From Dermatophagoides farinae (taxonomy: Eukaryota > Arthropoda > Arachnida > Sarcoptiformes > Pyroglyphidae), in contig NC_134681.1 of assembly GCF_024713945.1 (NCBI RefSeq), forward strand, positions 1,612,001 through 1,676,000: 64,000 bases of DNA, read 5' to 3'. Within the stretch, counting starts at the first letter, position 1, and each line of letters starts with the position of its first letter. Under the pieces are notes generated by a model, which saw only the letters and a program-made list of their open reading frames with translations, did not search any database and had not been told where the DNA came from. The position numbers were made by a program, and so were the translations under genes. Positions 1,564-47,400 of the stretch are shown here, piece after piece.

Positions 1564-2130
1564 ATGTTTATTTTTCGTATTACAACCGATGGTTATGGTA
1601 TGGCTCATCAGATGATCCGAGTGAGACGAGATGATAACATCGAACAATTATTGGACATTTATATAGACGGTCCACCACCATTGTCTCGTAATTGGCTGGT
1701 TATAATACCTAATAGTTTAATTCTTGATCGTATGTATTAATTTTTCAGTTTAAAATGACAACAATAAAATAATTAATCTAATCATCACATGTATGACAAA
1801 ATCATTTGATTTTGTTTGCGGTTTTATTCATTTTTTACTGCCCATATTTTGATTCAAATTTTAGGACCAGAAAATTGGCACAATATCCGCGATATGGTTC
1901 AACAACTTCCATTATATCCATTAGTTCAACAAGAATTGAATTCAATTGCTCGAAGAATTATTGTCGGTAAGTTGAATTGACATTCAAAACTATGTACTTA
2001 TATTTAATATGAACATTTTATTCCAGTGGAAGAAATACCGACCGCAATACAACATTGGTATCGATTGTATGGTAATAGTCCACGTTATGGAAATTTTCGT
2101 ATTACTTCATCTTATGTCAGAATTTCTTAA
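1564..2130 (+). CDS. tandem-family small protein A (3 exons, 123 aa), unknown function
   Basis: Spliced model: exons 1564-1729, 1865-1966 and 2027-2130. All junctions are GT/AG, both introns are phase 1, and the protein has 123 residues. The start is the ATG of MFIFRITTDGYGMAHQ. Exon 1 carries the family signature, an acidic hydrophobic strand followed by DGPPP and NWLVIIP; exon 2 begins PENW and is helical; exon 3 ends GNFRITSSYVRIS. No signal peptide, membrane segment or known domain is visible, so it is probably cytosolic. Exon number, intron phases and the 102-nt middle exon match genes E and F downstream, which supports a real protein-coding family. A second copy of its 3' end lies at about 8714-9093. 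It is not a family I recognise. Confidence 0.68.
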
Positions 2131-2935
2131 TTCTTGTGGAGGGAAAAAATGAATTCACATGAAAGAAAAACGCAAAAAACCCTTTTTCTTGAATCAACAA
2201 CAAAATTCAATTTCATTCTCTTTCATTAATAAAAATGAGATTTTTTTTTGAACAAAAAACTGTGTCAATTTAATTCACTGAATTTCACAGAATAATTCTA
2301 TTCCAATTCCGTGTATTCGAAACATCATTATAGTGATCATTATCCATTATTGAATAATAAATCTGGCAGATAGAAATCGATTTACACATCCATATGATCC
2401 AACTTATACATAACAAATTCCACCATTTCTTTGGCATATCAATGACAAAATACGATTAGATAACTGGATGAAAAAATGGATTATTCATTTTGAATAATAT
2501 CAACCGTTTAGCAATTCAACAATCGTTCGCTTGTGTAGCCACCTGTCGACTTGGAAAATAATGAAAACATATTCACATGGTTTCACTTTACAATTCTTAA
2601 CTGAATTTCAAATTCGTTTTAGGAATTTTCATTTATGAATTTAATTTGCCAAAACCTGTCCATCGATAATCGCTAGAACAAATGGTGAAATTATCAACCG
2701 AATACATGAAATTAATGATTTTAAAATCCGAAATAATGGCGAAAAACGTTCCGAATACGATACGTTCTCTATGAAGAGTTCACATAATGGTAATACTTTC
2801 AATATTGCTTACTCATTGTTTACGCAACTCATTTCGCAAAACGTTTATAGCCAGTGAAATTTTGATTTGATTCGATTTTTATTATTAATAAAACTTTGAT
2901 CAAATTGAAATATAAGTTAGTCTTTTGTGAAAAAA
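2131..2935. other. spacer between family genes A and B, containing the empty LTR insertion site
   Basis: The segment up to about 2436 is the 3' flank of gene A and recurs at 8781-9093. The segment from about 2446 recurs at 7128-7560 and 9318-9740. Near 2440 the sequence passes straight from one to the other with no LTR, whereas the other two copies have an LTR there. A 60-odd codon frame at about 2650-2858 containing NNGEKRSEYDTF is kept in all three copies. The copies are young, so conservation says little. It may be a degenerate exon or chance. Confidence 0.5.
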
Positions 2936-3606
2936 ATGAATGTACACCCTCTTAATTTTTTCTTTTATTTTGAGGCTGCACCTGTAATAATTAATTTGGT
3001 CATCCCTCGTTACCTTAATCGATTCTTCGATTTGTATTTTGAAATGACGATTTTTTCTAACCCGCCCCCATCCGGGTGGTGGGGTATTCAAATACCTGAA
3101 AACTATTTTTATTCTGGTAAGAAAAAATGATTTTAATAATTCAGATAAAATGGGTAATTTTCTTTTTTGACTCTAGTACCATTTCGAGATCGTCGAATTC
3201 TTCAAAACATTCGATTTTATGACGACGTGGAATGGCATATACTTTGGGTGGTGAAGAATTGAACAATTTTCTACGATATGTGACGATCGGTAAGCAAATT
3301 CTAACGATTTGATTATTGAATGACGCTACAAATTATTCATTTGTCATTCATTTAGCTGAGCATCCAGCAGATCTAGTGGTGAACACAGACCACGAACATC
3401 CCATTGCGACATTTGTGGAAATGACCGTTACCACACCCACCAGAAACTATCCGATTTTCAATGGCTATAACCTAAATGTCGAACATCCGAACAATGTAAC
3501 GGTTTCACAAATAGAATGCCGGTTCGTGATCAGATACACTCCAACAGAAATAAATTTTCAAGTATTTGATCCTGATGAGGAACTTGATCATGGCGATAAT
3601 ATATAG
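2936..3606 (+). pseudogene. tandem-family member B, exon 2 frameshifted copy of D
   Basis: The gene structure equals that of copy D (9818-10489): exons 2936-3116, 3177-3289 and 3356-3606 with GT/AG borders. Exon 2 is 113 nt here but 114 nt in D, because one T is missing in the segment coding RFYVRRGMA (around 3220). The frame shifts and meets a stop within exon 2. Exon 1 (ending GIQIPENYFYS) and exon 3 (starting EHPADLVVNTDHEHP) are intact and almost identical to D. It is either a very recent pseudogene or an assembly error. Read coverage over 3215-3225 would tell. Confidence 0.6.
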
Positions 3607-4112
3607 TGATAATAATATTTTAATATCATACTCGTCTTCGACGTTATCGCATTCGTGGATGAGGATGACGATGATAAAATTTTTCATTCACAAATAAGAA
3701 AATGTTTCACATAATTTCATTTGAATATACGAACTCTGACAATTTGATTTGAAGTTTTGAATTCATAACATTGTATATAAGAACGTTACTCATTATACTC
3801 ATAATAATACGAAAAACGGCAAACCATTGACATTTTCAACAAGTTTAAACATTATTGATTACTTTCTATATTTTGATATATATAAATAAATATTCAATGA
3901 AAAAATTTTGTATGAAATAAAAATTTTTCATTCATCGATGTAAATGATGCAAATGATGGTTATACAAAAATACAACCGAGACAAAAAAAAATGGAGAGAG
4001 AATGTGAATATGAATAAAATGAATTGAAATGAAACGAAACCAAAATCGAATGATTCAAAGATCACATTTAATAATTAATATATTTGAATATTCGAATGAA
4101 TGAAATAAAATT
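2936..4112 (+). repeat. segmental duplication, copy 1 (pairs with 9818-10995)
   Basis: From the start of gene B through its 3' flank, the sequence matches 9818-10995 at a constant offset of 6882-6883 bases. Very few differences are visible in the 3' part, for example AAGAACG against AAATACG near 3780. Homology ends abruptly at 4112/10995, where this copy joins the interior of a copia element and the other continues into unique DNA. Near-identity in non-coding DNA indicates a recent event. Confidence 0.8.
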
Positions 4113-4160
4113 CGTGTTAAACAAAATGTTATAGCTTCTGCAGCCTCATCTATCGATTCA

Positions 4161-6914
4161 ATGGCACTTTGGCATGAGCGATGCGCTCATTTTTCAACAA
4201 AGATGATCTCAAAAATGATGAATAACAAATTGGTCGATGGTGTTCCGAGTAATATTGGCAACAATATCTCATTTTGCGTCTCCTGTAAATCGGGTAAAAT
4301 GACGGGAACCTCCCATCTTAAAAGTTCCATTCATCAATATTTGAAACCTAGCTTAAAGCTTCATCTTGATATTGGCGGATATACAACAAGATCCATTCAC
4401 GGAAATATGTATTATCTAGTTGCAGTTGATGAATTTACAAATTACATCAAAATTGCTTTCATGAAAAATCGACAAGAAACCTTGGAAAAGTTTCGTAAAA
4501 TAGTTAATGAAATCAAGCTTGACACTGGTAATGATGTCCTGAGCATTCGTACAGATCATGGCTCTGAATTTCTTAGCAAAGACTTTAAGTCGTTCATCAA
4601 CAGTCGAGGTATCCTTCATGAATTAGCCACTGTCAAAACACCACAACAGAACGGGCGGGTGGAGCGGGCCATACGGAACATTGTTGATCATTCTATCTCC
4701 ATGTTATCGTCATCAAATTTGCCATTATCCCTTTGGGATGAATCAACAAATTGTTCTGTTTACGTCATAAATCGTATGTTAAATTCAAGAAATGAAATTC
4801 CATTTGAAAAATATTTTGGTCGTCGTGTTGATCTTTCAAATCTCCGTATCTTCGGCTCATTAGGCTATGCCTTAATTAAAAACGATCGACATAAATATTC
4901 ATCAAAGACCAAGAAAGTTTTTATGGTTGGTTATCATTCAAGTAACACTTATCGTGTTTATTGTCCAACCAATCGACGTATCGAATTTGCTTGTGACGTG
5001 AAATTTAATGAACAGGCTAAATGCCATATATCGACGAACAGCTCAAATATTGACAACAAAAATTTAAATTCAATTAATAACGATGATCAAAATTCATCAT
5101 TTTCATCAAATGAATCAACCGATTTGAATCATCATGATCAAACTGTTACAAACCCCAACATCGTTATCGTCAACGGGGGAAGTGACATCGATTCTATCAA
5201 CAACCCAACTGGGGGAAGTGACGAAAATGTTACCGATACCGATCTTGATGACAATGATTCCGAACATGTTGAAACAACCAATCGACGATCAGTTGGACGT
5301 CCTCTTGGATCATCAAATCGTAGATATGAAATTAATCCTGAACGAATAGATTCTTTGCGACCACGTTCAAATGAAAGTGAAGCTGTTGTGGCCATTGCTG
5401 GCAGTGAACCGAATACATTTGATGAAGCTGTAAGCAGTATTGATTCCGAAAAGTGGAAACTGGCCATGCAACATGAATTTAATCAATTAATTAAAAACAA
5501 AACGTGGGCTCTGGTTGAATCACCGTCTAATGTACGGGTGATATCAGTTAAATGGGTGTTTACAATCAAAGAAGACGGTCGGTATCGTGCGCGTCTGGTA
5601 GCAAGAGGTTTCGAACAGGATGATAAATCATCTTATGATTGTTACGCTCCAGTTGTTTGCATGGAAAGTGTTCGCTTGTTCTTCTCCCTGGTTGCATCCA
5701 TGCACATGTCATTGGTCCAATTCGATGTATCCTGCGCCTTCTTGAATGGCCAAATTACCGGAGACGTATATATTAAACAACCACCTGGTTACGATGATGA
5801 TTCAGGCCGTGTCTGCAAATTATTTCGAGGTTTATACGGATTACGTGAAAGTCCCAGGAGCTGGAACTCCGTATTTGATCAAACCAAACGTAAGTTTGGC
5901 TTTAATTCTACTAATCTCGATCCCTGTTTTTATTTCATGCGAGAAAATGCCGAATTCACAATAATGATCATTTACGTCGACGATGGCATAATTGCATCAA
6001 CGAACAAGAAGAAACCGCTCGAAATTTTTGATAAATTGTCTAAAAGATTTGAAATCCGTAAAGTTGAATCATCTCGTTTCCTCGGTATTGAATATGAACG
6101 AAATTATCGAAATCGGACTATATATTTAAAACAAGAACAATATTTATTGGACAAGTTGAAAAATTTTGAAATGAATGAATCGAGACATTCTGATACACCG
6201 TTTGCCTGCGGTACGAATCCATATGACACCGAATCTCCAACCAACGAAGATTATCCATATAGACAGGCCGTCGGTGCTCTTCTATATTTGTCCTGTAAAA
6301 CACGTCCAGATATTGCATATACCGTATCATTATTAGCAAGGTTTACGAACGCACCAAATGAAATTCATGTGAAGTCAATAAAACGTCTTTTTCGATATCT
6401 TAATGGCACACGTTCGGTTGGTATTTGCTTGGGCGGTGAAGTTCCAAAATCGATTGTGGGATATGCAGACGCTGATCTCTCTGGTGACAAAATTGGTGGA
6501 AAAACAACCACTGGACACATTGTTTATTTTGGAGGTCCAATCATTTGGAAGACTCATTTACAAAAATGTACTATTGATAATACTTGCGAGGCCGAATATA
6601 TATCAGCATCGTTGTGTGCCAAGGACATGAAATATATCCGAAATCAATTGGTCGAAATTGGAATCGAAACAGACATTCCCATTTTAAATTGTGATAATCG
6701 TTCTACTGTCTACCAAATTTATGGTCAATCTATTACGCCAAAACTTCGTCATATTGCTATCAAATTTCATTCTATTCGTAACGATGTAATGGACAACAAT
6801 CTAATCGTAAAATGGATTCCCACCGATCAACAGGTTGCGGACGTACTTACTAAATCTCTCCCTCCGGCTAAATTTGTTCCTTTGGTACGTTTGCTGAATC
6901 TGGGGAAGTGTTAA
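4161..6914 (+). CDS. copia-type Pol fragment: integrase, reverse transcriptase, RNase H
   Basis: A 917-codon frame from the first ATG, with no internal stop. In order: the GAG-pre-integrase zinc-binding segment (WHERCAH to CVSC, residues about 4-52); the integrase core with D132 in RTDHGSEF and E168 in GRVERAIRN, a D-x35-E spacing, and an earlier Asp near residue 70; a linker rich in Asn/Asp; reverse transcriptase with FDVSCAFLNG and the catalytic YVDD near residues 603-606; and RNase H beginning GYADADLSGD with CEAEY later. The order integrase before RT is diagnostic for Ty1/copia. The last sense codon and the TAA stop fall in the first six bases of the 3' LTR. Gag and protease are missing, so the element cannot act alone, although the enzymes encoded here show no break. 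First Met is a convenient start; the native polyprotein began further upstream. Confidence 0.9.
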   Translation: MALWHERCAHFSTKMISKMMNNKLVDGVPSNIGNNISFCVSCKSGKMTGTSHLKSSIHQYLKPSLKLHLDIGGYTTRSIHGNMYYLVAVDEFTNYIKIAFMKNRQETLEKFRKIVNEIKLDTGNDVLSIRTDHGSEFLSKDFKSFINSRGILHELATVKTPQQNGRVERAIRNIVDHSISMLSSSNLPLSLWDESTNCSVYVINRMLNSRNEIPFEKYFGRRVDLSNLRIFGSLGYALIKNDRHKYSSKTKKVFMVGYHSSNTYRVYCPTNRRIEFACDVKFNEQAKCHISTNSSNIDNKNLNSINNDDQNSSFSSNESTDLNHHDQTVTNPNIVIVNGGSDIDSINNPTGGSDENVTDTDLDDNDSEHVETTNRRSVGRPLGSSNRRYEINPERIDSLRPRSNESEAVVAIAGSEPNTFDEAVSSIDSEKWKLAMQHEFNQLIKNKTWALVESPSNVRVISVKWVFTIKEDGRYRARLVARGFEQDDKSSYDCYAPVVCMESVRLFFSLVASMHMSLVQFDVSCAFLNGQITGDVYIKQPPGYDDDSGRVCKLFRGLYGLRESPRSWNSVFDQTKRKFGFNSTNLDPCFYFMRENAEFTIMIIYVDDGIIASTNKKKPLEIFDKLSKRFEIRKVESSRFLGIEYERNYRNRTIYLKQEQYLLDKLKNFEMNESRHSDTPFACGTNPYDTESPTNEDYPYRQAVGALLYLSCKTRPDIAYTVSLLARFTNAPNEIHVKSIKRLFRYLNGTRSVGICLGGEVPKSIVGYADADLSGDKIGGKTTTGHIVYFGGPIIWKTHLQKCTIDNTCEAEYISASLCAKDMKYIRNQLVEIGIETDIPILNCDNRSTVYQIYGQSITPKLRHIAIKFHSIRNDVMDNNLIVKWIPTDQQVADVLTKSLPPAKFVPLVRLLNLGKC

Positions 6915-7122
6915 AGCAACTTGAACTTTATTCATCATACATACACATTGTCACATATATAAACGACACATTTATACATGTAGTCAGTTGATTGTTTTCT
7001 TCTACACACACAACACTATGATCATCTCTTCTTTTTATATTTGTGTATCATTCATTTTGTATTTTCTTTCTTTATTTTGGTTCTTTTAAATTACAATAAA
7101 TATAAATTAATTAATTTCAACA
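6909..7122 (+). repeat. copia 3' LTR (214 bp)
   Basis: It begins TGTTAAAGCAAC and ends TTTCAACA, the usual TG..CA ends. It is preceded by a short purine-rich tract (GGGGAAG) and followed by ATAGC. It holds a TATA-like TATATAAA at 6956-6963 and an AATAAA polyadenylation signal at 7095-7100. By eye it is identical to the solo LTR at 9099-9312. Confidence 0.88.
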
Positions 7123-7626
7123 ATAGCCAAATACGATTAGATAACTGGATGAAAAAATGGATTATTCATTTTGAATAATATCAACCGTTTAGCAATTCAA
7201 CAATCGGTCGCTTGTGTAGCCACCTGTCGACTTGGAAAATAATGAAAACATATTCACATGGTTTCACTTTACAATTCTTAATTGAATTTCAAATTCGTTT
7301 TAGGAATTTTCATTTATGAATTTAATTTGCCGAAACCTTTCCATTGATGGTCGCCGGAACGAATGGTAAAATTATCAATCGAATACATGAAATTAATGAT
7401 TTTAAAATCCGAAATAATGGCGAAAAACGTTCCGAATACGATACGTTCTCTATGAAGAGTTCACATAATGGTAATACTTTCAATATTGCTTACTCATTGT
7501 TTACGCAACTCATTTCGCAAAACGTTTATAGCCAGTGAAATTTTGATTTGATTCGATTCTATAGTATTAAATCATTTTTATTTTATCAAATTGAAATTGA
7601 AATATTTGTTAATCTTTTGTAAAAAA
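7123..7626. other. spacer of duplicated unit, copy 2
   Basis: It follows the copia LTR and matches 2446-2935 and 9318-9817 with small differences. It contains the conserved short frame (7344-7538, ending AYSLFTQLISQNVYSQ). It is the presumed upstream region of family copy C. Confidence 0.55.
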
Positions 7627-8780
7627 ATGAATGCACACCCTCTCAGTTTTTTTTTGTTTTTGAGGCCGAGCCAGGCCTAATTAATTTGGTCATCCCTCGT
7701 TACCTTAATCGATTCTTCGATTTGTATTTTGAATTGACGATTTTTTCTAACCCGCCCCCATCCGGGTGGTGGGGTGTTCAAATATCTGAAAACTATTTTT
7801 ATTCTGGTAAGAAAAAATGATTTTAATAATTCAGATAAAATGGGTAATTTTTTTTTTTGACTCTAGTACCATTTCGAGATCGTCGAATACTTGAAAACAT
7901 TCGATTTTATGTACGCCTTGGAATGGCCTATATTTTGGGTGGTGAAGAATTGAACAATTTTCTACGATATGTGACATTAGGTAAGCAAATTCTAACGATT
8001 TGATTATTGAATGACGCTACAAATTATTTGTAATTCATTTAGCCGAGCATCCAGCAGATCTAGTGGTGAACACAGACCACGAACATCCCATTACGACATT
8101 TGTGGTAATAGAACGAAGAAATTTTTGTATTAATATCAAAAATCCATTATTGAAATATTTCAATATGGATAACCGGATTATGGATTCACATTGTCGATTA
8201 TTGAATGAATGTCCAATATCGAGCAGCAATGATAATGTTGGTGATAAAACAAAAGAAAAAGAACAAAACAATGATAATAAAAAAATTGAACAACATCATC
8301 ATAATCAATATTATTACAATACGAACAATGAAAAAGTGCCAAAATTTAGCAATTATAAACAAGATAATAATGATGTTTTTAATCAACGAAAAAAACATTT
8401 TCATCATCATCACCACCACCATCATCATCATCATTATCAAAACATTCGATTTTATGTACGACGTGGAATGGCCTAATGATGATGATCATAATAATAACGA
8501 TAATCGAACCATCAATGATGATGATGATTATCATCATGAAAATTATTCATCATTAGTATCACATCATCCTGATCATCATCATCATCATCATGATAATCAT
8601 CATCATTATGCTTATTTTCTAACATCAATACCTTTGAATTATTCAAAAAATTCATATAAACACCATTCAATAATCTCCAACAATAATTATAATAATGTGA
8701 AACATTCAAAAAAATTGTATGGTAATAGTCCACGTTATGGGAATTTTCGTATTACTTCATCTTATGTCAGAATTTCTTAA
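7627..8780 (+). pseudogene. tandem-family member C: frameshifted and chimeric with the tail of gene A
   Basis: Exon 1 starts at 7627 but has nine Ts where intact copy D has ten, so the frame is lost and a stop follows at CCAGGCCTAA. Exon 2 (about 7868-7980) is open and reads PFRDRRILENIRFYV. Exon 3 begins like D (EHPADLVVNTDHEHP) but from about 8105 turns into unrelated, coding-like DNA rich in Asn and His codons. Inside this lies a 36-40 bp patch (8437-8476) repeating part of exon 2 (IRFYVRRGMA). From about 8714 the sequence is the end of gene A (GNFRITSSYVRIS) and its 3' flank. A 191-codon frame (8205-8780) runs through to gene A's stop, so a novel chimeric peptide is conceivable. The simplest reading is a rearranged pseudogene. 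Confidence 0.6.
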
Positions 8781-9093
8781 TTCTTGTGGAGGGAAAAAAT
8801 GAATTCACATGAAAGAAAAACGCAAAAAACCTTTCTTCTTGAATCAACAACAAAATTCAATTTCATTCTCTTTCATTAATAAAAATGAGATTTTTTTTTG
8901 AACAAAAAACTGTGTCAATTTAATTCACTGAATTTCACAGAATAATTCTATTCCAATTCCGTGTATTCGAAACATCATTATAGTGATCATTATCCATTAT
9001 TATTGAATAATAAATCTGGCAGATAGAAATCCATTTACACATCCATATGATCCAACTTATACATAACGATTCAATTATTTCTTTGACACATCA
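8714..9093 (+). repeat. duplicated 3' end and flank of gene A
   Basis: This segment repeats 2063-2436, including the last codons and TAA stop of gene A, and a poly-T block at about 8890. Differences include an extra ATT near 9000 and changed bases just before the LTR. It places the solo LTR at the position that is empty near 2440. Confidence 0.75.
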
Positions 9094-9317
9094 ATAGCTG
9101 TTAAAGCAACTTGAACTTTATTCATCATACATACACATTGTCACATATATAAACGACACATTTATACATGTAGTCAGTTGATTGTTTTCTTCTACACACA
9201 CAACACTATGATCATCTCTTCTTTTTATATTTGTGTATCATTCATTTTGTATTTTCTTTCTTTATTTTGGTTCTTTTAAATTACAATAAATATAAATTAA
9301 TTAATTTCAACAATAGC
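9094..9317 (+). mobile_element. solo copia LTR with 5-bp target-site duplication
   Basis: The 214-bp LTR (9099-9312, TGTTAAAG to TTTCAACA) is flanked on both sides by ATAGC (9094-9098 and 9313-9317). This is the 5-bp duplication expected of copia integration. No internal sequence is present, so it is the product of LTR-LTR recombination. The right flank and target sequence match those of the truncated element at 7123, so the LTRs at 6909 and 9099 descend from one insertion that was later copied together with its surroundings. Confidence 0.88.
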
Positions 9318-9817
9318 CAAATACGATTAGATAACTGGATGAAAAAATGGATTATTCATTTTGAATAATATCAACCGTTTAGCAATTCAACAATCGGTCG
9401 CTTGTGTAGCCACCTGTCGACTTGGAAAATAATGAAAACATATTCACATGGTTTCACTTTACAATTCTTAATTGAATTTCAAATTCGTTTTAGGAATTTT
9501 CATTTATGAATTTAATTTGCCAAAACCTGTCCATCGATAATCGCTAGAACAAATGGTAAAATTATCAATCGAATACATGAAATTAATGATTTTAAAATCC
9601 GAAATAATGGCGAAAAACGTTCCGAATACGATACGTTCTCTATGAAGAGTTCACATAATGGTAATACTTTCAATATTGCTTGCTCATTGTTTACGCTACT
9701 CATTTCTTAAACCGTTTATTTATAGCCAGTGAAATTTTGATTTGATTCGATTTTGTTGTATTAAATCATTTTTATCAAATTGAAATTGAAATATTTGTTA
9801 ATCTTTGGTGAAAAAAA

Positions 9818-10489
9818 ATGAATGCACACCCTCTCAGTTTTTTTTTTGTTTTTGAGGCCGAGCCAGGCCCAATTAATTTGGTCATCCCTCGTCACCTTAA
9901 TCGATTCTTCGATTTGTATTTTGAAATGACGATTTTTTCTAACCCGCCCCCATCCGGGTGGTGGGGTATTCAAATACCTGAAAACTATTTTTATTCTGGT
10001 AAGAAAATATGATTTTAATAATTCAGATAAAATGGGTAATTTTCTTTTTTGACTCTAGTACCATTTCGAGATCGTCGAATTCTTCAAAACATTCGATTTT
10101 ATGTACGACGTGGAATGGCATATACTTTGGGTGGTGAAGAATTGAACAATTTTCTACGATATGTGACGATCGGTAAGCAAATTCTAACGATTTGATTATT
10201 GAATGACGCTACAAATTATTCATTTGTCATTCATTTAGCTGAGCATCCAGCAGATCTAGTGGTGAACACAGACCACGAACATCCCATTGCGACATTTGTG
10301 GAAATGACCGTTACCACACCCACCAGAAACTATCCGATTTTCAATGGCTATAACCTAAATGTCGAACATCCGAACAATGTAACGGTTTCACAAATAGAAT
10401 GCCGGTTCGTGATCAGATACACTCCAACAGAAATAAATTTTCAAGTATTTGATCCTGATGAGGAACTTGATCATGGCGATAATATATAG
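9818..10489 (+). CDS. tandem-family small protein D (3 exons, 181 aa), intact
   Basis: Spliced model: exons 9818-9998, 10059-10172 and 10239-10489, GT/AG throughout, both introns phase 1, 181 residues. The start is the ATG of MNAHPLSFFF. Exon 1 includes FDLYFEM, then NPPPSGWWGIQIPEN, which aligns with the PPP..W.I.IP signature of the sister genes. Exon 2 begins PFRDRR and ends LNNFLRYVTI. Exon 3 begins AEHPADLVVNTDHEHP and is longer than in A, E and F, ending in an acidic tail. No known domain, signal peptide or membrane helix is seen. It is the only unbroken copy of the B/C/D subgroup. The exact intron borders match in B and C, which supports the model. Confidence 0.68.
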
Positions 10490-10995
10490 TGATAATAATA
10501 TTTTAATATCATACTCGTCTTCGACGTTATCGCATTCGTGGATGAGGATGACGATGATAAAATTTTTCATTCACAAATAAGAAAATGTTTCACATAATTT
10601 CATTTGAATATACGAACTCTGACAATTTGATTTGAAGTTTTGAATTCATAACATTGTATATAAATACGTTACTCATTATACTCATAATAATACGAAAAAC
10701 GGCAAACCATTGACATTTTCAACAAGTTTAAACATTATTGATTACTTTCTATATTTTGATATATATAAATAAATATTCAATGAAAAAATTTTGTATGAAA
10801 TAAAAATTTTTCATTCATCGATGTAAATGATGCAAATGATGGTTATACAAAAATACAACCGAGACAAAAAAAAATGGAGAGAGAATGTGAATATGAATAA
10901 AATGAATTGAAATGAAACGAAACCAAAATCGAATGATTCAAAGATCACATTTAATAATTAATATATTTGAATATTCGAATGAATGAAATAAAATT
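9818..10995 (+). repeat. segmental duplication, copy 2 (pairs with 2936-4112)
   Basis: This is the partner of 2936-4112. After 10995 the sequence continues into DNA not seen elsewhere in the window, so 10995/4112 is a duplication breakpoint. Confidence 0.8.
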
Positions 10996-11461
10996 ATTTT
11001 AGCATATATATTCTTTCTATAGAAATAAAATGATCATCATTATCTCATTATTATTATTATTGATCACCATGGATTTCAACTTTGATTTTTTTTTTCAATG
11101 TTCATTTCTGGTAAAATACAGATATCAATGCTTCTATATCATGTGTGTATGCGTGAGTGTGTGGTTTCTATCTATTTGATGTATTTTTATACATGGATGT
11201 GTAGACCAACAACAACAACAACAATAATAATAGTAAATGATTCATCATTCCATTTCAAACACTAGATTAATCAATGAATACGAGGCAAAAAATTTTTTTT
11301 TTTTTTTTTAAAGACCACCCAGATTTTAGATATTAAAACGAATTGGTGTGCGTCGTGTATCTATCTCTCATCGGAAACAAATGGTTGTTGTTGAAAACAA
11401 ATAAAAAAACATCAGCAATAATAACATTCATTTAAATCATCCAAATCAAAATTTGAAAAAA
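10490..11461. other. intergenic between D and E
   Basis: The first half is the duplicated 3' flank. The rest is AT-rich with CAA, GT and poly-T tracts (poly-T at about 11289-11309). It should contain the promoter of gene E, but no specific element can be named. Confidence 0.4.
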
Positions 11462-11985
11462 ATGGTTTACATATTCTATGTCAAAACAGATTCACGTGGA
11501 ACTGCTGAATTTAAATTACGATGGCGTATTGTTCAAGATATTGATATTATCATTGAAATCGATATTGCTGGACCACCACCAGCATCAAATTTATGGAAGA
11601 TACAGATACCAAGACGTTTTCTTTTACAAGGTATTTACCAATAGTCACCAATATATATAAATCATAATAATCATTATTCTGTTCTTAGTTCCACGAAATT
11701 GGCGAGACATTCTTTTCACTTTAGAAAGCATGACATATCGTTCTATTCATGGTGATCAATATACAGAAATGGAATCCTCAATTATCATTGGTAAGTTTTG
11801 TGTTTTTTTTTCATCACATCAATATGAATTCATTCAACACATTGAATCCTATATTTGGAATTAAAGAAGAAGAGGTCCGAGAAAATATGCGTGAATATTA
11901 TGCAAGTCATGAATTTGAACCACGTCGACCATGGTCATCGGTGATAAGAGCAGCCTATGCACGGAAACACTTTGTCTGGGATTAG
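11462..11985 (+). CDS. tandem-family small protein E (3 exons, 129 aa)
   Basis: Spliced model: exons 11462-11630, 11689-11790 and 11867-11985, both introns phase 1, 129 residues. The start is the ATG of MVYIFYVKTDSRG. Exon 1 ends with IDIAGPPPASNLWKIQIPRR, the clearest example of the family signature. Exon 2, 102 nt, begins PRNWRD. Exon 3 is charged and ends FVWD. The acceptor of exon 3 (TTAAAG) has a poor pyrimidine tract, so that border is slightly less certain. No domain is recognised. It shares orientation, exon count, phases and motif positions with A, D and F, so it is an older, diverged paralogue. Confidence 0.68.
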
Positions 11986-12448
11986 AAAAAAAACAAAATC
12001 AATTCATTTCATTTGGTTTAATCATCAATCAATTATACTTTATACTTTACCAGTTTAAATACCAAAAAAAAAAAAAAAAAAACAATAATAATGAAGATAA
12101 TGATAATCTAAATTTTCAATATTCAATTACAATATATTTTTCGAAAACAAAACAAAAAAAATGCAGATCCTTGATTCAATCAATTTCTTTAAAATCGTTT
12201 GTAATTTTTCTGTTTTTAAAATAAAAAAAAAAATGATGATAATTTGCAAAACAAAACAATTTTAACGTACTTCATGAATGGATACAATGTCTATATAATG
12301 AAAAAAATCCGTTTTCATCATCTCAGTTTTCGATTTGACTCAATTCAAAGCTTAAATTGGTCATTATTTGCAAAAGTTTTTGAAATAAATCTAAACCATA
12401 TTCATATATTGTCTTTTAATCCAACTTTTTTTTTTTTGGTACAAAAAA
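11986..12448. other. intergenic between E and F
   Basis: AT-rich spacer of about 460 bp with a long A tract near 12063-12081. A 97-codon frame through this region is Lys/Phe-rich chance reading. Nothing else is seen. Confidence 0.4.
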
Positions 12449-12939
12449 ATGTCTTTTCACGTTTTCAATGTTCCAATGTATCGAAATAAGAGTTCAAGTA
12501 AATTTCGATGGAAAATTGGTCACGGAAGTGATGAACTTGTTGTCATGATCGACATTTATGGCAAACTACGAAATAATACAATGTGGATAGTCAAATTTCC
12601 AAAAGAAATGTCCGCTAAATGTATGTAATTGATTCCAAATTCTGAACTGAACTAATGAATACATTTTTTTTCTTCTTTTTTTTAAAAAAAAAAGATCCGA
12701 CAAATACGGAATTTATTTATCGTGATTTACAGCGAACTGGTTACAGTCCAATCGTTGAAGAAAAATTGCAAGAACTTCGAAATCAAATTCAGATCGGTAA
12801 GTTGATTTTTTTTTATTCTTTGATAAAAATAAAAATCGTTCATATTTTTTTTCCAGTATCCGAACGAGATGGCGTACCAGCAAATCGATGGGATTTGACA
12901 GCCTATTATGGAAAACCTGGATTCGAATTCGAAGAGTAA
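12449..12939 (+). CDS. tandem-family small protein F (3 exons, 118 aa)
   Basis: Spliced model: exons 12449-12620, 12695-12796 and 12857-12939, both introns phase 1, 118 residues. The start is the ATG of MSFHVFNVPMYRNKSS. Exon 1 carries ELVVMIDIYG and MWIVKFPKE, matching the acidic strand and W.I..P positions of the sisters, though the PPP triplet is lost. Exon 2 is again 102 nt and begins PTNTEFIYRDL. Exon 3 is short and ends FEFEE. No known domain. It is the most diverged member of the array, and its identity rests mainly on exon length, phase and the residue pattern of exon 1. Confidence 0.62.
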
Positions 12940-14832: not shown

Positions 14833-17800
14833 CAGTGTTGCATATTGGCCACAATTTTTTTTTTCATTTTCATTTTACAAATGTACAATATTGAATGCTA
14901 TAAATTTTATAAAATAAAAACAAAAACAAAAAAAAAATTCACCATTAGTTACGAGAAAATAAATTCTGTTGGAGAAAAAAAAAATTTTCTTTAAAAATTA
15001 TAATTGCTCCAAAAAGAAAATAAACAAAACAAAAAAAAAAAAATTTTTTTGAGCATGAAATTGTGGAAAAATTTTTTGACTTTATTTTCTTATACGTTCA
15101 ATTCTTGTTCTTGTGGTGTTGTCCACATACACACACACACACACAAAAATCAACAAGTTTGTGAGAAGAAAAAAAAAATACTTGTTTCTTCTTCTGTTGT
15201 CTGAACTCAACAACCAAATGATCATCACCATATATACAATTATATTATTATATACGTAGTATTTTCTATCACTATCACAGAAAAAAATAAGACAGTAAAC
15301 AAAAAGAGAAAGAGAGAAAAAAATAATGATGTGATGCTATCATCATCATCATCAAAAAAAAAAGAAAAAAAAAGAAATAGAGAGAGAGTGACTGGCAATA
15401 AAAAAAAATGAAAAAATAAATTGCAGATACTTATTTCTGATTGTGTGTAGTGGCGGCGGCGGCGGCGTCAATGGCAAGCAACGGAAAAACTAGAACTAAA
15501 AACGACAAAATACCAAATCAAATCAAATAACAAAGTGGTGAATAAAAAAAAAACGACAAAAAAAAACTCATTGCCCATTTTTATTTTTCATTATTAAGTC
15601 AATATTTTATTATTCTATTCTTTTACACACACACACACACAAAAATGTAATTGTTTACTCATACACACACACACACACACAAACAAACAAACAAACAAAC
15701 AAAAAAATCAATCACAAAATGTGAAAGCAATCAATCAATCAATCGATATAATAAGTGTTTTTGTGTTTGTTTGTGACCACGTTTTTAAGACATTGTCATA
15801 GTAATAGCAGTAGTAGTAGTAGTAGTATAATTTATAAAACTCATCATCATCATCATCATCGTCATCTTTATTGTACTAATATCACATCATATCAATCATC
15901 AACCTAATTAAAAAATTTAAAAAAAAAATTTTCCATAGCGCCACCATACACCATACACCATATTGCTATTGATTAAATATAAATGCTGCTACTCTACCAA
16001 CAAAAAATTTTCTAATTTTGAAAATCATAAAACAATATAAATAATAATAAAATAAATATATAACAAGAACAACGAAAAATAGATTAAAGCAAATGACGAT
16101 GATGATGATATTAAAAAAAAACCTGTATCTGTTTTTTTTTTCAAGGATGTTCAAAAGTAAAAAAAAAACAAAATGAAAATTTCAAATCGAATAAAATTCG
16201 TTCATTTGCTTCTCTACTAATACTACTACCTGCGTATTGTGGATGGATGTGTGTAAATAATAATAATAATTATTATTTTTTTTTAATATTTCGGATGAGG
16301 ATTCACTATTCATTTTTTTTTTTTTTTTGGCTGCTGTTTCTCAATAATTATCATTCTCATTCAATCTTTACAACTACCACATACCACTATATGAAAAAAT
16401 TGTAATGGCTCGATGACTATGATGAATTATTATTCTACCATCATCATCATCATCATCATCATGGCTGTTGATTGTTGTTGATGGTGGCGATGATGATGAT
16501 GATGATGATTTTACAAACACCATTTTTTTTTGATGTGATACAGTGATAATCGTTTATTTTTATGATATCACACACACACACACACATACATACAACACTA
16601 GAAAAATTTCATTTGAATCATTTTTTTGGCTTTGATTTTCATTTGAATTTGTTTGCAACAAATGATGATGGAATAAATGAAGACAAAAATGAAATAGACA
16701 CAAACACCCGGTTGTGTGTGTTTATTCAGTTATGGCCAATGGTCAAAAAAAAAATGTGTTCGATAATCGTATTATCGTTTAGAATAGTGGAGAAAAAAAA
16801 ATTGTTCAGTGGTCATGTTGATTTTCAAGAACAATTATCAGCAATAATAGGCCCTCTGTAATGTAACACACTTATACTAATGGGGATCGAAAAAGTTGTC
16901 ATTTTTTTTTTCGTAGTGTGGTAGCAAGAATTGTAAATTTTGTATTTTTTTTTTTACCAAAAAAGGATAAAATACTCACCAAATACGATGAATCATATAA
17001 TAATAAATAAATTTTACCTGAAAAGGTAAAAAAAGGGTAGCGTGCAAAAAAAAACTGATATCATAAAGATTCCAAAATGAGACTCGATCGAAACACACAA
17101 ATACACTGCTCAAACTAATAGCTAAAAGCTATTTAAGTAAAGTAAAATAAAAAACAATTTATCCATTAACAGTAGCAAGCAGAAGTAGTAGAGAAAGAGG
17201 ATTTTTTTTTTTTTTGAAAATGGAACCAAATGGTCCACGGGTAAAAAAAAACAACAACAACAAACAATAGAATGGGTGGGTCATAGCCATGAAATAGTGT
17301 ATGGTTTGTTGGTTGATCGGTTTTGTTTAGTTTTTAGATCGACCAAAGTAGAGGAAATTGAACATTTCTTTTTTTTTTTGTTATTCAAAGCTTCAATTGC
17401 TAGGATTTGGATAGTAGGCTTGTTGTGTTCGTCGATCATCATCATTCACCATCATAGGTCGTCATATATCGTTCTAGCTTGGATTTTGGTTCAGGTCCAG
17501 GTCAAGGCCTGGTATAGAATTGTATATATTAATTTGAAAATACAGTAAATTTTCCACAATAATCTAAGCGTTAAAAATCATAATAATATTGATGATGATG
17601 ACCTTTACCTTAATATATTTCTAAGAAAAATATAAAAGCAATGAATGGAATAAACAAAATTACATCGTAAAGATCAAAGGAAATATAAAATGCAAACATA
17701 CACAAACTAGCTAACTTATGACAAAAAAAAACCATGAACATTCAATGTATTCGATTTATTCCATTTCGAACAACAACAACAACAACAACAACAACAAATA

Positions 17801-22760: not shown

Positions 22761-24468
22761 ATGTCATTCATAACAAAATCGATATTGATCACAAATATTG
22801 GCCAAAAACAACGCTGGTCGACTACTGCTTCAATAATTCGAACATTTAGTTCACATTCACAAAATGATTTATATCGATCATTAATATTTGAAAAAGCATT
22901 TATTGATGGAAAATTTTGTCAATCAGAAAATGGTGAAAAATTCAAAGTTTTCAATCCATCTAATGGTAAACTTATTGGAAATGTGGCTGATTGTACGGTG
23001 AATGATGTAAAACGTGCTGTTCAAGTGGCTAAAAAATCATTCAATGATCATTGGTCACAAACATTGGCTAAAGATCGTGCACAATTATTAAAACGTTTAT
23101 TTACATTACAATTGGATAATGCTGAACCATTAGCACAATTAATAACAGCCGAAATGGGTAAACCATTACGTGAATCACGTGGTGAAATAATGTATGGTGC
23201 TAGTTTTTTGGAATGGTTTGCTGAACAAGCACGTCGTATTCATGGTGAAATCTTACAAAGTCCATGGCCAGATAAACGTATTAGTTATCGAAAAGAACCA
23301 TCAGGAGTTGTTGCCATTATAACGCCGGTAGTATTTTTTTTTTTAATTTAAATTTAAATTTCATAATCTGAAAAACAATTAATAATTTCATTTTTGTTTT
23401 ATTTTTCAGTGGAATTTTCCAAACGCTATGGTTACAAGAAAATTGGCCGCAGCATTAGCAGCTGGTTGTACGGTTGTTATTAAACCGCCTGAAGATACAC
23501 CATTCTCTGTACTTGCATTAGCAGCATTATCGATAAAAGCCGGATTTCCACCAGGTGTTATCAATATTGTTCCAGTTTCTCGCCAGAATACTCAGAATAT
23601 CGGTTCATACATATGTAATAATTCAGATATATCAGTCATATCATTTACTGGTTCAACATCAGTTGGTAAATGGTTGATAAAGAATAGTGCTAATACTGTT
23701 AAACGTGTTTGTTTGGAATTGGGTGGTGATGCTCCATTCATTGTTTTTGATTCAGCAAATATCGATAAAGCTGTACAAGGATGTATTGTTTCGAAATTTC
23801 GTAATGCCGGACAAACATGTGTATGTGCCAATCGTATATTCGTTCAAGATGGCATTCATGATCAATTTGTCAATGCATTAGCTGAACAAATGCAAAAAGA
23901 ATTAATTATTGGTGATGGATTCGATGATCATACGACCATTGGACCATTAATCAATGAAAAAGCTGTAGAGAAAGTTATTAGCCACGTTGAAGATGCACAA
24001 AATAAAGGTGCCAAAATATTGATCGGTGGTCGAAAACATGAAAAAGGTGGATATTTTTTCCAACCAACATTAATGACCAATGCTAAATCGGACATGTTGA
24101 TTGCACATGAAGAAACATTCGGTCCAGTTGCAGCTGTTTTCAGGTTTGAATTCTATGATTCTTACATTTGATCCCATAATCATTTATTCATTTCATTTTA
24201 TAGATTTAAAACCGAAGATGAAGTCATACGAATTGCAAATGATTGTCGTCGTGGTTTAGCCGGTTATTTTTATTCCCAAGATTATGCACAAATTGAAAGA
24301 GTTACTAGACGTTTAGAAGTTGGTATGATTGGCATTAATGACGGCATACTATCTTGTTGTGAAGCACCATTCGGTGGTGTTAAAGAATCTGGTCTTGGTC
24401 GTGAAGGTTCACATTTTGGTGTCGATGAATTTCTTGACGTTAAATATGTTTGCCACGGTGGATTTTGA
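22761..24468 (+). CDS. ALDH5A1: succinate-semialdehyde dehydrogenase, mitochondrial (ALDH5A1 family)
   Basis: Spliced model: exons 22761-23327, 23410-24143 and 24204-24468, 521 residues, close to the family's usual length. It should oxidise succinate semialdehyde to succinate with NAD(P)+, the last step of GABA degradation, in the mitochondrial matrix. The first 35 residues are basic and Ser/Thr-rich with few acids, fitting a mitochondrial presequence. The aldehyde dehydrogenase fold is complete: [16 protein letters not shown], general base E292 in LELGG, nucleophile C326 in GQTCVC (spacing 34 as in the family), and EETFGPV. The segments [30 protein letters not shown] and the ending [23 protein letters not shown] are typical of the SSADH subfamily rather than other ALDHs. 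Both introns interrupt conserved motifs cleanly. Confidence 0.95.
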
Positions 24469-38945: not shown

Positions 38946-40955
38946 TTAATTTCCATTTTGTTTATTCAAATCATCATCATCATCAACATCATTTGTTTTA
39001 ATATTTGAAGTTTTTTTTGTTTTTGCTGTCGATGACGAAGATCGTGATGATTGTGGCCATGTATATGTGCCATAGAATTTGAAACCATTGGCTACACAAA
39101 AATCATCTGCCTGTTTACAGCCACGTGTACCATAATAATATGGTGCTGGTACAATTTTTTTCATTTCAATTTCATGTAATAATGGTGTAAATATACGCCA
39201 TGCTTCAGATAATTCATCTGAACGTACAAAATGCATCTGTGATCCACCAAAAACATCCATCAATAAACGTTCATATGCATCAGGTAATCGAGAATCTTTA
39301 TAACGATTCTGATAGGTTAAATCCAATTCTGTTTCAGATAAACGAAATGTCATTCCAGGTTCTTTGGTCATAAATTTAATATAGACAGCTTCATTTGGTT
39401 GTATACGAATAACCAATTCATTACGAGTACATTGGCCATGAAATATATTACCAGGAACATCACGAAATTGTATACGAATTTCAGCTTTACGTTCATTCAA
39501 TGCTTTACCACAACGTAAGAAAAATGGTACACCATCCCAACGTTCATTATTAATTTGACAACGTGCTAATGCAAATGTTGCTGTTAATGATTCATTTGGT
39601 ACGGTTGGATCATCACGATATGATAATCTGCCTTCACCATCTAATTTTGGATTACCAATATATTGGCCTAATACAATATCATCCGATGAAAGTGTACGCA
39701 TTGCACGTAAAACTTTTACTTTTTCATCACGAATATCTTCGGCATTAGTCGATACTGGTTTTTCCATTGCAACTAAACATAGTATCTGTAGCAAATGATT
39801 TTGCATCACATCACGGATAATACCGAATCGATCAAAATAACCACCACGTCCCATAGTGCCAAATGGTTCTTTGAATGTAACCTGTATACTAGATATATGT
39901 TCATGATTCCAAATTGGTGCAAAAATACGATTACCAAATCGTAATACCATTAGATTTTGTACCATTTCTTTGCCAAGATAATGATCGATACGATAAATTT
40001 CATCTTCATCATATAATGATTGTAAATGACGTGATAATTGTTGTGATGAATCATAATCATGTCCAAATGGTTTTTCAATTATAATACGTTTCCATCCTCT
40101 ATTTTTTTTTTGACATTTGATGTCGTGTTGATAGATGGCATTAATGAGAGAAAAAAAAATTTTTTTTAAAAAAATTTTCCATTTTAAAACAAAAAAAATA
40201 AAAAACATACTTGGTATTCCAACAATGTTGTTTGATCAATTTTGTTGTTGATTCAAATATATTTGGCGGCAATGCCAAATAGAAAAGACGATTAGCATGT
40301 AATCCATTATCATTATCCTCTAATTCTTGGACACGTTTCATTAATTTAATAAAACCCTTATCATCATCATATTCGCCTTGTACATAGAAATTGTGTAATA
40401 AAAATTGTTGAAATAATTCACGTTCATCTTCATCACGTAATTTTATATGTCGTCCAATATGTTCATATAATTTTTGTACGGTCATTGATGATCTTGCATA
40501 GCCAACGATACCAGTTTTCAATGGCATCAATTCATCACGATATAATGCCCTTTTTTTGGATTGAAATTGAACAACAACAAAAAAAATAAACAAAATTTTA
40601 AAAATCACAATTCCAATTAATTAATCTTTTCATTTACATACCAAAGTGTTGGATAAATTTTTTTCGTTGCCAAATCACCAGATGCACCGAATACAATGAA
40701 TGTATGATGATCACCGGTTTCATAGTTTAATGATTCTTTAATCAATTTGATTATTTCTTGTGAACAATGATCATCTTCAAGACAATTATTACTACCAACA
40801 TTGACGCCATTAACATCATTCATCATCATATTATTACCATCCAAACATGGATTATGATAAATACAGGCACTAGTTTTTTTAGCCACTGGTGATGATTCAA
40901 TCATTTTTTGTTTATTACAATTATTCATTTCATCACCATTAATTATTTCGGCCAT
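38946..40955 (-). CDS. G6PD: glucose-6-phosphate 1-dehydrogenase
   Basis: Spliced model: exons 40955-40642, 40549-40211 and 40098-38946, 601 residues (the animal enzyme is usually about 515). It oxidises glucose 6-phosphate to 6-phosphogluconolactone, making NADPH, in the cytosol. The NADP-binding FGASGDLA (G90-A96), [13 protein letters not shown] across intron 1, [14 protein letters not shown] after intron 2, and the active-site RIDHYLGKE (R254, H257) are all present. Later come [27 protein letters not shown], the structural-NADP region and a C-terminal [12 protein letters not shown]. It has an extra N-terminal stretch of about 80 residues rich in Asn and Cys, and an acidic DDDDDL tail. Shorter translation from M10 or M18 is possible. 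Introns split codons exactly where family homology resumes, so the model is secure. Confidence 0.95.
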
Positions 40956-44424: not shown

Positions 44425-47400
44425 TCAGTCACATTCATTAATGGCATTGTCTTGGATATTATCTTTTGATTTTTGTTGTTGTTGTTGTTGTTGTTGTTGA
44501 CTAGAATTTGATCGATTATCATTATCATCATCATTATCATGATGATTGATCATGAATGATGATGCTTGTGTATTAGTATCAGATGTTTGAACAACTTCTA
44601 CAGATTGAAAATATGGTCGAAATTTATGATAACGAACATGATCAGATGATGGTGGTGATTTTTTCGATGTTTGCAATGGTAATTGTAATGATGATTGTCG
44701 TCGTTGTTCATGTTGGTTTTGTTTTTTATTATAATAATAATCATTACGTTCATTTTCTAATGCTGTAATACGTTGTTTCAGACGTTTTTGTGTTGCAGAA
44801 TATTCAGCAATCAATCTAGCAAAACGTAATTGTAATGAATCCAATTCTTTTTCTAAACGGCGACATTTAAGTTTAAAATCTTCTTCTTCGATTGCAGCAC
44901 GTTTTAATATTTCTTCATCCAGAAGATTATCTTTACGTAAAATTTGTTTACCTTTTTCAATCAACATATTACATGCTTCAGGATAATCTTCTAACACTTC
45001 CCAAAGATCATTTTTTGATAAACAAAATAAATCCGAATAACCAACTGAACGTACGTTGGCCGTACGACGATTACCGGTTTTATTTCCTTTTATATTCAAT
45101 ATAGATAGTTCACCAAATACTGAACCATCTGTTAGTGTAGCGAATACGGTACGTCCATCATCACCAACCACGGATAATTTGCCTTTTTTAACGATATACA
45201 TTTCTTTACCAACATCACCTTTACGGCAAATATAATCACCAGGTGAAAATACTTGTAAACGTAATTTAAGTATCAATTCAACTAATAATCCAGGTTCACA
45301 ATCTTGAAACAATTGTACACGTCTTAATGTTTGTAGATGGACATTGATAGCAATTTCTGCTTTCAATTTATCTGGCAATATTGCCGTCACGGAATCTTCA
45401 TCCAACGATTGTTTATTGGTCCATAGATAATCAAACCATTTGATGACACGATTTTCAAGATCTTTTGATACATGACGAAATTTCATATATTGTTTCACTG
45501 AATCCATTTGTGATTGAAATTCAGCACGTGCTGCATTCATATTTGTAATCATTGAACCAACATTACCGACAATCGTGGCGAATATTAATACACCGATAAG
45601 AAAATTTATAACAACAAATGTATATTCAAAATCCGTCTCTGGTATCGGCACTTCACCAATTGTTGTCAATGTTAATGTTGACCAATAGAAACAATAAATA
45701 TATTGATGTCTCAATGTATCGGTTACATTTGTACCATTAATCAATGAAATCGATGGACGATTATAAACCCAACGATCAGTATCGAAACCAATTACATATG
45801 ATATAGCAAAATAGATACAAGCATTCCAATGAATCAATATTAATATATAGAATATTAGTTTAGCAATACGAAATGCGTGAGGAAAATTCGTACGTGTTTC
45901 GGTACGTTCAAAACATTCGGTCAGACGATAAAACCGGAACAATCGATTAATACGTACAATAATGGCACATGGATAAAATGATTCTGGTTCACAATAAGTA
46001 CCGGTCATTATGAATATTAGATCCGTTGGTAATAATGATATTATATCCAATTTGAAACGAAAACTTTGGATATAATTTATTAATAATTTATTCAAATCTC
46101 TAACCAATAGACCTTGTTCCAGATAACCAGTACGTGAACTAAGAAACATGTCCATCAAATAAACACCATCAATAACGTAATCGATAATCATCCAAATTGT
46201 TAAATAATTATTTTGCATCTGCCAAAATACTGAACGTCCAATAATTGTGGTCACATTATAAATAACTGAAATGCTAAATGGTGAGACAAAAAAATCATAA
46301 TCAATTCAAACTGACAAAAAAAAACCACTCACCACATAATAAATAACCATTGATAATAGGTTTCTGTGTGACGAAAAAAAAAATCAATCAATCAATCAAT
46401 TGATATTCTAAACAACAAAATACATACGGCTACCCGGATCGATAACATAATGCAATGGTCGTCTTCGTGATCTACGATTCTGATTCTGTTTATTATTATT
46501 ATCAGCATTGGAGTTATCATTACCTCCATTATCATTGTTTTTATCAGCAACATTTATCATTGTATGACGATCATCATCATCATCATCATCAACATTTTTA
46601 CCAGTGCCATGTGCCATGGCAAATTTTTCCAAAAATGAATCATGACTACCCATTATATTTCTGCCATTATGATGTCCATTATTTCCTTTGGCCCAATATT
46701 TAAAAACCTATGGTTTATCGTAAAAAAAACCCAAACAAAAAGAAAATGTTTAGATTTGTTCATGATCAAAATGAAAACAAAAACAAAACCTGAAAAGCAT
46801 TAGCCACTTTAGGTATATTTAGCCGAAATTCTTTGGTTGCTGTTGTTGTTGTTGTTGAAACTTGTTGCAATGGTTGTGGCTGTTGTTGATTAATAGATTT
46901 ATTATCAAGTTCAGATTTCAATGATAAATCTGATTGAATAATCGATGATGGTGTCGACAGTGATTGTATACTTGATGTTAATAATAATTTTGATTTTGTC
47001 ATTGTCATCATCGATGAAGCTGATGATGATAATCGACGACCCGATTGTTGTTGTCGTTGTTGATGATGATGATGATTATCATCATTATCCGTTGCTGATG
47101 GTGAATTAATATCCAATGTGGTTGTTGTCCAAATTGTTGATTGTCTTTGTAAATGATGATTGCGATTATGATTTTCTTGTTTTCGAATATTCAAACCAGA
47201 ATCTAAACGTTTATTATTCTGATCATTATCATCAGGAATCGTACGTATTGAACCATTCAATAATGGTCGAGATTTTTCATTATCATTATTATTACTATTA
47301 TCATCTGAAATTGGTGCAACCATATTCATTGTCAAATTACGATATAATAATGATTGATTTGACATTCGTCGATTTGTCTTTATTTTAGACGGTTGTTGGT

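Follow-up and report, generated by a model that had tools for sequence, protein, structure and literature searches.

The window analysed here, a stretch of 64,000 nucleotides of the mite Dermatophagoides farinae (C5:1612001-1676000), carries a small tandem gene family, designated A to F, of which four members probably work and two are dead. The non-coding DNA of these copies and of their relics is more alike than the exons, and the reading preferred here, to which a probability of about one half is given, is that repeated exchange homogenises the non-coding DNA while the exons retain older differences. A single genome was searched, of 62.4 Mb in 22 contigs. The earlier note, made from the sequence of the window, had described six comparable copies in tandem. 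The tandem family is real, but it is smaller than that: in the re-derived models all copies lie on the plus strand, and since B and C are broken, and C is moreover a chimera, the number of probable genes is four (A, D, E and F) and not six. The coordinates are collected in Table 1.

Table 1. Features of the array, in positions of the window.
Feature	Position	Strand	Description
Gene A	1564-2130	+	exons 1564-1729, 1865-1966, 2027-2130; 123 amino acids; frame intact
Duplicated D-type unit with copy B	2440-4112	+	96.8% identical to 9311-10995, self-comparison
Copy B	2936-3606	+	exons 2936-3116, 3177-3289, 3356-3606; frame broken
Open frame of copia-type retroelement	4161-6914	+	integrase and reverse transcriptase domains; from the list of open reading frames and Pfam on two separate pieces
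3′ long terminal repeat (LTR) of the copia-type element, then ATAGC	6909-7122	+	214/214 bases identical to 9099-9312
Copy C, 5′ part (truncated D-type unit)	7121-8109	+	upstream, exon 1, intron 1, exon 2, intron 2, start of exon 3
Copy C, 3′ end (copy of A's tail and downstream DNA, 2064-2443)	8714-9095	+	96.3% identity, self-comparison
Solo copia LTR	9099-9312	+	5-bp target duplication ATAGC at 9094-9098 and 9313-9317
Gene D	9818-10489	+	exons 9818-9998, 10059-10172, 10239-10489; 181 amino acids; frame intact
D intron 1	9999-10058	+	at least 8 genome places, 3 within the array
D intron 2	10173-10238	+	at least 7 genome places, 3 within the array
Gene E	11462-11985	+	exons 11462-11630, 11689-11790, 11867-11985; 129 amino acids; frame intact
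E-F spacer	12094-12321	no strand	also in relic L022 on C4: 10 substitutions in 218 aligned sites
Gene F	12449-12939	+	exons 12449-12620, 12695-12796, 12857-12939; 118 amino acids; frame intact

First of all, the contrast between exons and introns was measured with D as the reference against the three alignable relics, namely L022 and L023 on contig C4 and L048 on C3. A further pair of copies on C6 was excluded from the counts because its exons do not align. For L023 the count of exon sites was restricted to the last 91 nucleotides (nt) of D exon 1, because the first half has long indels; for L048 it omits exon 3 and the opening 45 nt of exon 1; and for L022 the opening 8 nt of exon 2 were dropped, together with the final base of intron 1. 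The pooled differences from D were 17/304 in introns and 141/648 in exons, and each relic gave the same picture by itself: 5/124 against 57/334 substitutions in L022 (Fisher p 1.7e-4), 2/59 against 20/91 in L023 (p 0.0016) and 10/121 against 64/223 in L048 (p 4.6e-6). When columns near gaps were dropped, the pooled counts became 12/257 in introns and 93/403 in exons (p 2e-11). This contrast is noteworthy and of a kind that is known elsewhere.

The E-F spacer carried by L022 has 10 substitutions in 218 sites, which places it with the introns and apart from the exons (p 7e-6) or the fourfold sites (9/32; p 1.1e-4). Since the spacer is as conserved as the introns, the outlier is the exons and not the introns, which argues against intron function as the main cause and also against plain positive selection. 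That the D-type introns are functionally constrained, as a regulatory element or a small RNA, while the exons drift, is thus improbable. It is true that intron 2 contains an 8-bp inverted repeat and folds somewhat better than its shuffles, of which 11/200 do as well, and that the C3 relic and the C6 copies share 55 nt of it without a single difference. However, bases of the relics disrupt the stem pairs of intron 2 when read from the sequences, intron 1 folds no better than its shuffles (136/200 as good), the introns survive in dead copies, and those of A, E and F are not recognisably alike. With these shuffle counts, 11/200 for intron 2 and 136/200 for intron 1, an RNA structure of the introns is not convincing.

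Synonymous (dS) and nonsynonymous (dN) divergence from D was calculated without codons touching gaps: dS 0.37 and dN 0.16 in L022 (dN/dS 0.44), 0.71 and 0.20 in L023 (0.28), and 0.84 and 0.29 in L048 (0.35). The synonymous sites of the exons are thus several times more diverged than the introns. That is to say, non-coding DNA between copies is more alike than synonymous sites, as is expected of concerted evolution of the opsin type, in all three relics of this one genome. Since dN/dS lies between 0.28 and 0.44, the exons were once under purifying selection, and no positive selection is seen over the whole protein. The earlier idea of a rapidly evolving young family therefore keeps only a part of its ground: the proteins of A, D, E and F are indeed highly divergent and the exons differ more than the introns, but the comparisons with the relics do not show positive selection on the whole protein.

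In the preferred reading, repeated non-allelic exchange, by gene conversion and unequal crossing-over, would keep introns and spacers alike among the copies, while purifying selection for differing proteins would let the exons retain their older differences; this would make the synonymous sites look several times as old as the intervening introns. The duplications within the array are consistent with such a history. Self-comparison gives 93-97% identity among three D-type units (2440-4112, 7121-8109 and 9311-10995). B is frameshifted, its exon 2 being one base shorter than that of D. The frame of C is broken by an exon 1 that is one T short relative to D; past 8109 it departs from the family, and at its 3′ end it repeats the tail of A. 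This copy is a dead chimera, in which a D-like 5′ part is followed by other DNA and then by the copied tail of A. Between B and C lies the copia-type frame, in which Pfam recognises rve, SH3_retrovirus, gag_pre-integrs and RVT_2; the element is truncated, and no 5′ LTR was seen adjoining the frame. Because the two LTR copies are identical and share the ATAGC flank, they go back to one insertion, duplicated with its surroundings. It would follow the same lines that the family was enlarged by segmental duplication of a block from A to D and was reshuffled around this copia insertion. Moreover, the divergence along the duplicates is uneven, as expected of opsin-type concerted evolution: B and D differ by 40 substitutions in 1672 aligned sites. 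Of the 23 bins of 75 nt, three at 9686-9910, which cover the 5′ half of exon 1 and the promoter, contain 29 of these substitutions; such a mosaic is typical of exchange.

Several points weigh against this reading. Exchange limited to introns of 60-66 nt is demanding, more so across contigs, and a donor lineage carrying the diverged exons was not found. The spacer in L022 may have come separately from the D piece, and the piece of A exon 2 in the same relic is intermediate, with 6/59 sites differing. The relics were detected by their similarity to D, which is an ascertainment, and the three comparisons all use D and are not independent. The single control pair, tandem GST genes, is identical at 239/342 exon sites; the acceptor of the second copy is unclear, and the best of the intron pairings tried gives 37 identical and 13 different positions with 27 gap columns, so that this pair speaks neither for nor against the contrast. 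The models of A, D, E and F are those of probable genes read from the DNA itself, and the codon usage of D is indistinguishable from intergenic DNA. We infer exchange as the cause of the contrast, and put it conditionally, because D enters all three comparisons, the relics were detected by similarity and one genome was used.

The gene models themselves have the following basis. A, D, E and F each have an intact spliced frame with two phase-1 GT-AG introns and a middle exon of 102 nt in A, E and F and 114 nt in D, so the fixed gene structure described earlier is upheld. In shuffle tests the proteins are related beyond chance in five of the six pairs, the pair D-F not directly; exon 1 gives the main signal for A-E, D-E and E-F, and exon 2 for A-D. 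Exon 3 showed relatedness in none of the six pairs, and for this exon the earlier statement that all three exons are shared is accordingly not supported; the introns of A, E and F are likewise without recognisable likeness. The codon usage favours the annotated frame in all four genes, only modestly when set against intergenic DNA, and for D not at all in that comparison. It could be objected that there are no working genes here, A, D, E and F being decaying or chance frames, and the weak codon signal, absent in D, as well as the two broken copies out of six, would agree with this; but four spliced frames that stay open with matching phases, the relatedness of the proteins and dN/dS below 1 make it a very doubtful objection. 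When A, D, E and F were searched by tblastn against the window and its 8-kb left flank, nothing convincing emerged as a further member beside the array; D had a match at window position 16550 with E 0.54. Protein F weakly matches window positions 27713-27492 on the minus strand, at 27% across 74 columns and with an E of 0.004 in a small search that used no composition correction; this stretch sits within a 710-amino-acid frame for which there is no Pfam match.

A new finding relative to the earlier note is that relics of D lie elsewhere in the genome, on contigs C3, C4 and C6. At E <= 10 the genome-wide protein matches of A (5), E (4) and F (3) were all inside the array, and protein D had 13, of which ten were in the array, two on C4 and one on C20 (E 2.1). 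The D unit and the D introns as DNA queries, in searches whose counts are lower bounds, located additional pieces on C3 and at two places each on C4 and C6; those on C6 are the pair L050 and L052. L022 contains D from intron 1 to exon 3 and, in addition, part of A exon 2 and the E-F spacer. It is suggested that pieces of the array block were copied to C3, C4 and C6 and then decayed there. In the C6 pair, intron 1 is matched at 79% and intron 2 at 93-94% identity; the D matches end at, or at most 4 bases from, the intron ends, 16 bases stand between them, and no D exon is recognisable in the pair.

Two other explanations were considered. In the one, exon-segment switching or strong diversifying selection, as in the accelerated segment switch in exons (ASSET) of snake toxins, drives the exon divergence and the introns evolve at the neutral rate. 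This would fit the higher divergence of exons than of introns and spacer, the lack of relatedness of exon 3 among A, D, E and F, and the C6 matches that stop so close to the intron ends while the D exons cannot be recognised; the layout of three exons with two conserved introns also matches that described in PMC2474615. However, each of the three relics gives a dN/dS below 1, the synonymous sites are equally inflated, the differences in L022 are scattered, those in its exon 3 without forming blocks, and neither a signal peptide (by eye) nor a cysteine scaffold is present, so that this explanation is considered fairly unlikely. In the other, which is tentative and to which low odds are given, the proteins would be a small intracellular family of recognition type in dust mites, with the introns as conserved anchors for exchange and the exons as diverse, possibly allelic, cassettes, earlier versions of which are retained in the dead relics within introns that have hardly changed. 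If it were true, the history of exon diversity could be read from one genome.

The relics might also be dead insertions of a mobile element, the family being its cargo or a former part of it. A mobile gene, too, leaves dispersed dead copies with dN/dS below 1, and the surroundings of the relics are rich in repeats: near L023 there is a faint match to FLYWCH (E 0.072), and C6 has the 97% identical 2.7-kb copies in opposite orientation. However, no terminal repeats or flanks common to the relics were found beyond array sequence, except for one short match and with ends that were not searched systematically; the FLYWCH-like fragment upstream of B has no Pfam match; and L022, with its pieces of D, of the E-F spacer and of A, looks like copying of the array. 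A mobile origin is accordingly quite unlikely.

Some further observations were made in the genome. L050 and L052 (C6:4390000 and C6:4337000), the 2.7-kb copies with D-type introns, lie about 53 kb apart among what appear by eye to be copia and hAT remains. L048 (C3:26122-29399), a broken D-type copy, is close to the contig end, and downstream of it on the same strand lies an unrelated broken frame, transposase-like by eye, with a sub-threshold Pfam match only. L041 (C3:1388500-1398499) holds two adjoining duplicated blocks: one of 1.3 kb (99.8% identity), which by eye resembles a BEL/Pao-type retroelement, and one of 1.2 kb (98% identity), with a FLYWCH match in each copy.

As for the proteins, they appear to form an undescribed small-protein family without recognised relatives in the libraries searched. 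Pfam, NCBIfam and PHROGs gave only sub-threshold matches and none above the curated cut-off, and the alignment profile found two PDB chains at E <= 10 (0.74 and 0.94), neither convincing. The exon 1 of E is predicted to form a four-strand sheet, with a predicted local distance difference test score (pLDDT) of 76.7, the other four models reaching 55-63; compared with PDB folds, this exon gave 307 matches at E <= 10 and none at E <= 0.001. The view that no known domain is present therefore holds for all these libraries, for PDB folds with exon 1 only, and the predicted structure comparison formerly proposed is answered for exon 1 of E alone. The profile search placed the proteins convincingly in no known family, and TFIIF beta, the nearest candidate, is not supported.

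With the N-terminal domain of TFIIF beta (RAP30) the family shares a short W.V..P motif following an acidic strand; over this stretch the alignment profile A1 matches TFIIF beta with E 0.94, and F compared with the start of the mite's own TFIIF beta was equalled by 6/2000 shuffles. A, D and E were equalled by 171, 293 and 196 of 2000, and the profile comparison gave a probability of 3.2%. PF17683 has four genome matches at E <= 10, including the mite gene on C4, and none in the array; the Pfam scan of the A, D, E and F proteins contained no TFIIF family; and the first intron of the mite gene lies about 20 codons further on (by eye). With weak scores, a negative PF17683 search and another intron position, it is hardly credible that A, D, E and F are diverged paralogues of this domain, and the candidate was rejected. 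An origin from FLYWCH or Mutator-like elements (MULE) was also considered and is not supported: of nine genome matches to FLYWCH at E <= 1, four were above the cut-off and none was in the array, and the weak one near L023 was below the cut-off.

No signal peptide was recognised by eye in the four translations, and cysteines number none in A, E and F and one in D. We infer a small intracellular protein with a four-strand sheet predicted in exon 1. If one role had to be chosen, the guess suggested by the evolutionary pattern would be a binding module; selection would keep its variants distinct, as in recognition or in a conflict with mobile DNA or parasites.

The other neighbours in the window are ordinary: an aldehyde dehydrogenase (22761-24168, plus strand), a glucose-6-phosphate dehydrogenase (38949-40208, minus strand) and a cyclic-nucleotide-gated channel (44428-46218, minus strand). 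Self-comparison also showed pairs of inverted repeats at 20867-21153/21468-21678 and 33055-33170/34555-34683, at about 74-92% identity.

The array is a compact case of introns alike and exons different, which is known elsewhere for opsins and venom genes, and the major histocompatibility complex has also been discussed as such a case. Should other mite genomes confirm the pattern, selection for protein diversity would be acting at this locus, in a mite of medical importance; otherwise the array is an ordinary birth-and-death cluster. In the snake three-finger toxin genes subject to ASSET, PMC2474615 describes three exons and two introns, with the introns conserved and the exons divergent, as in the mite; the mite family differs in having no secretion signal (by eye) or cysteine framework, a dN/dS below 1 and no clear block switching in L022. 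In the primate red and green opsin genes, according to PMC3924837, gene conversion homogenises the introns while exon 5 is kept different. The mite copies compared are partly dead, stand on other contigs and have introns of only 60-66 nt, but both systems are tandem duplicates whose introns are more alike than their exons.

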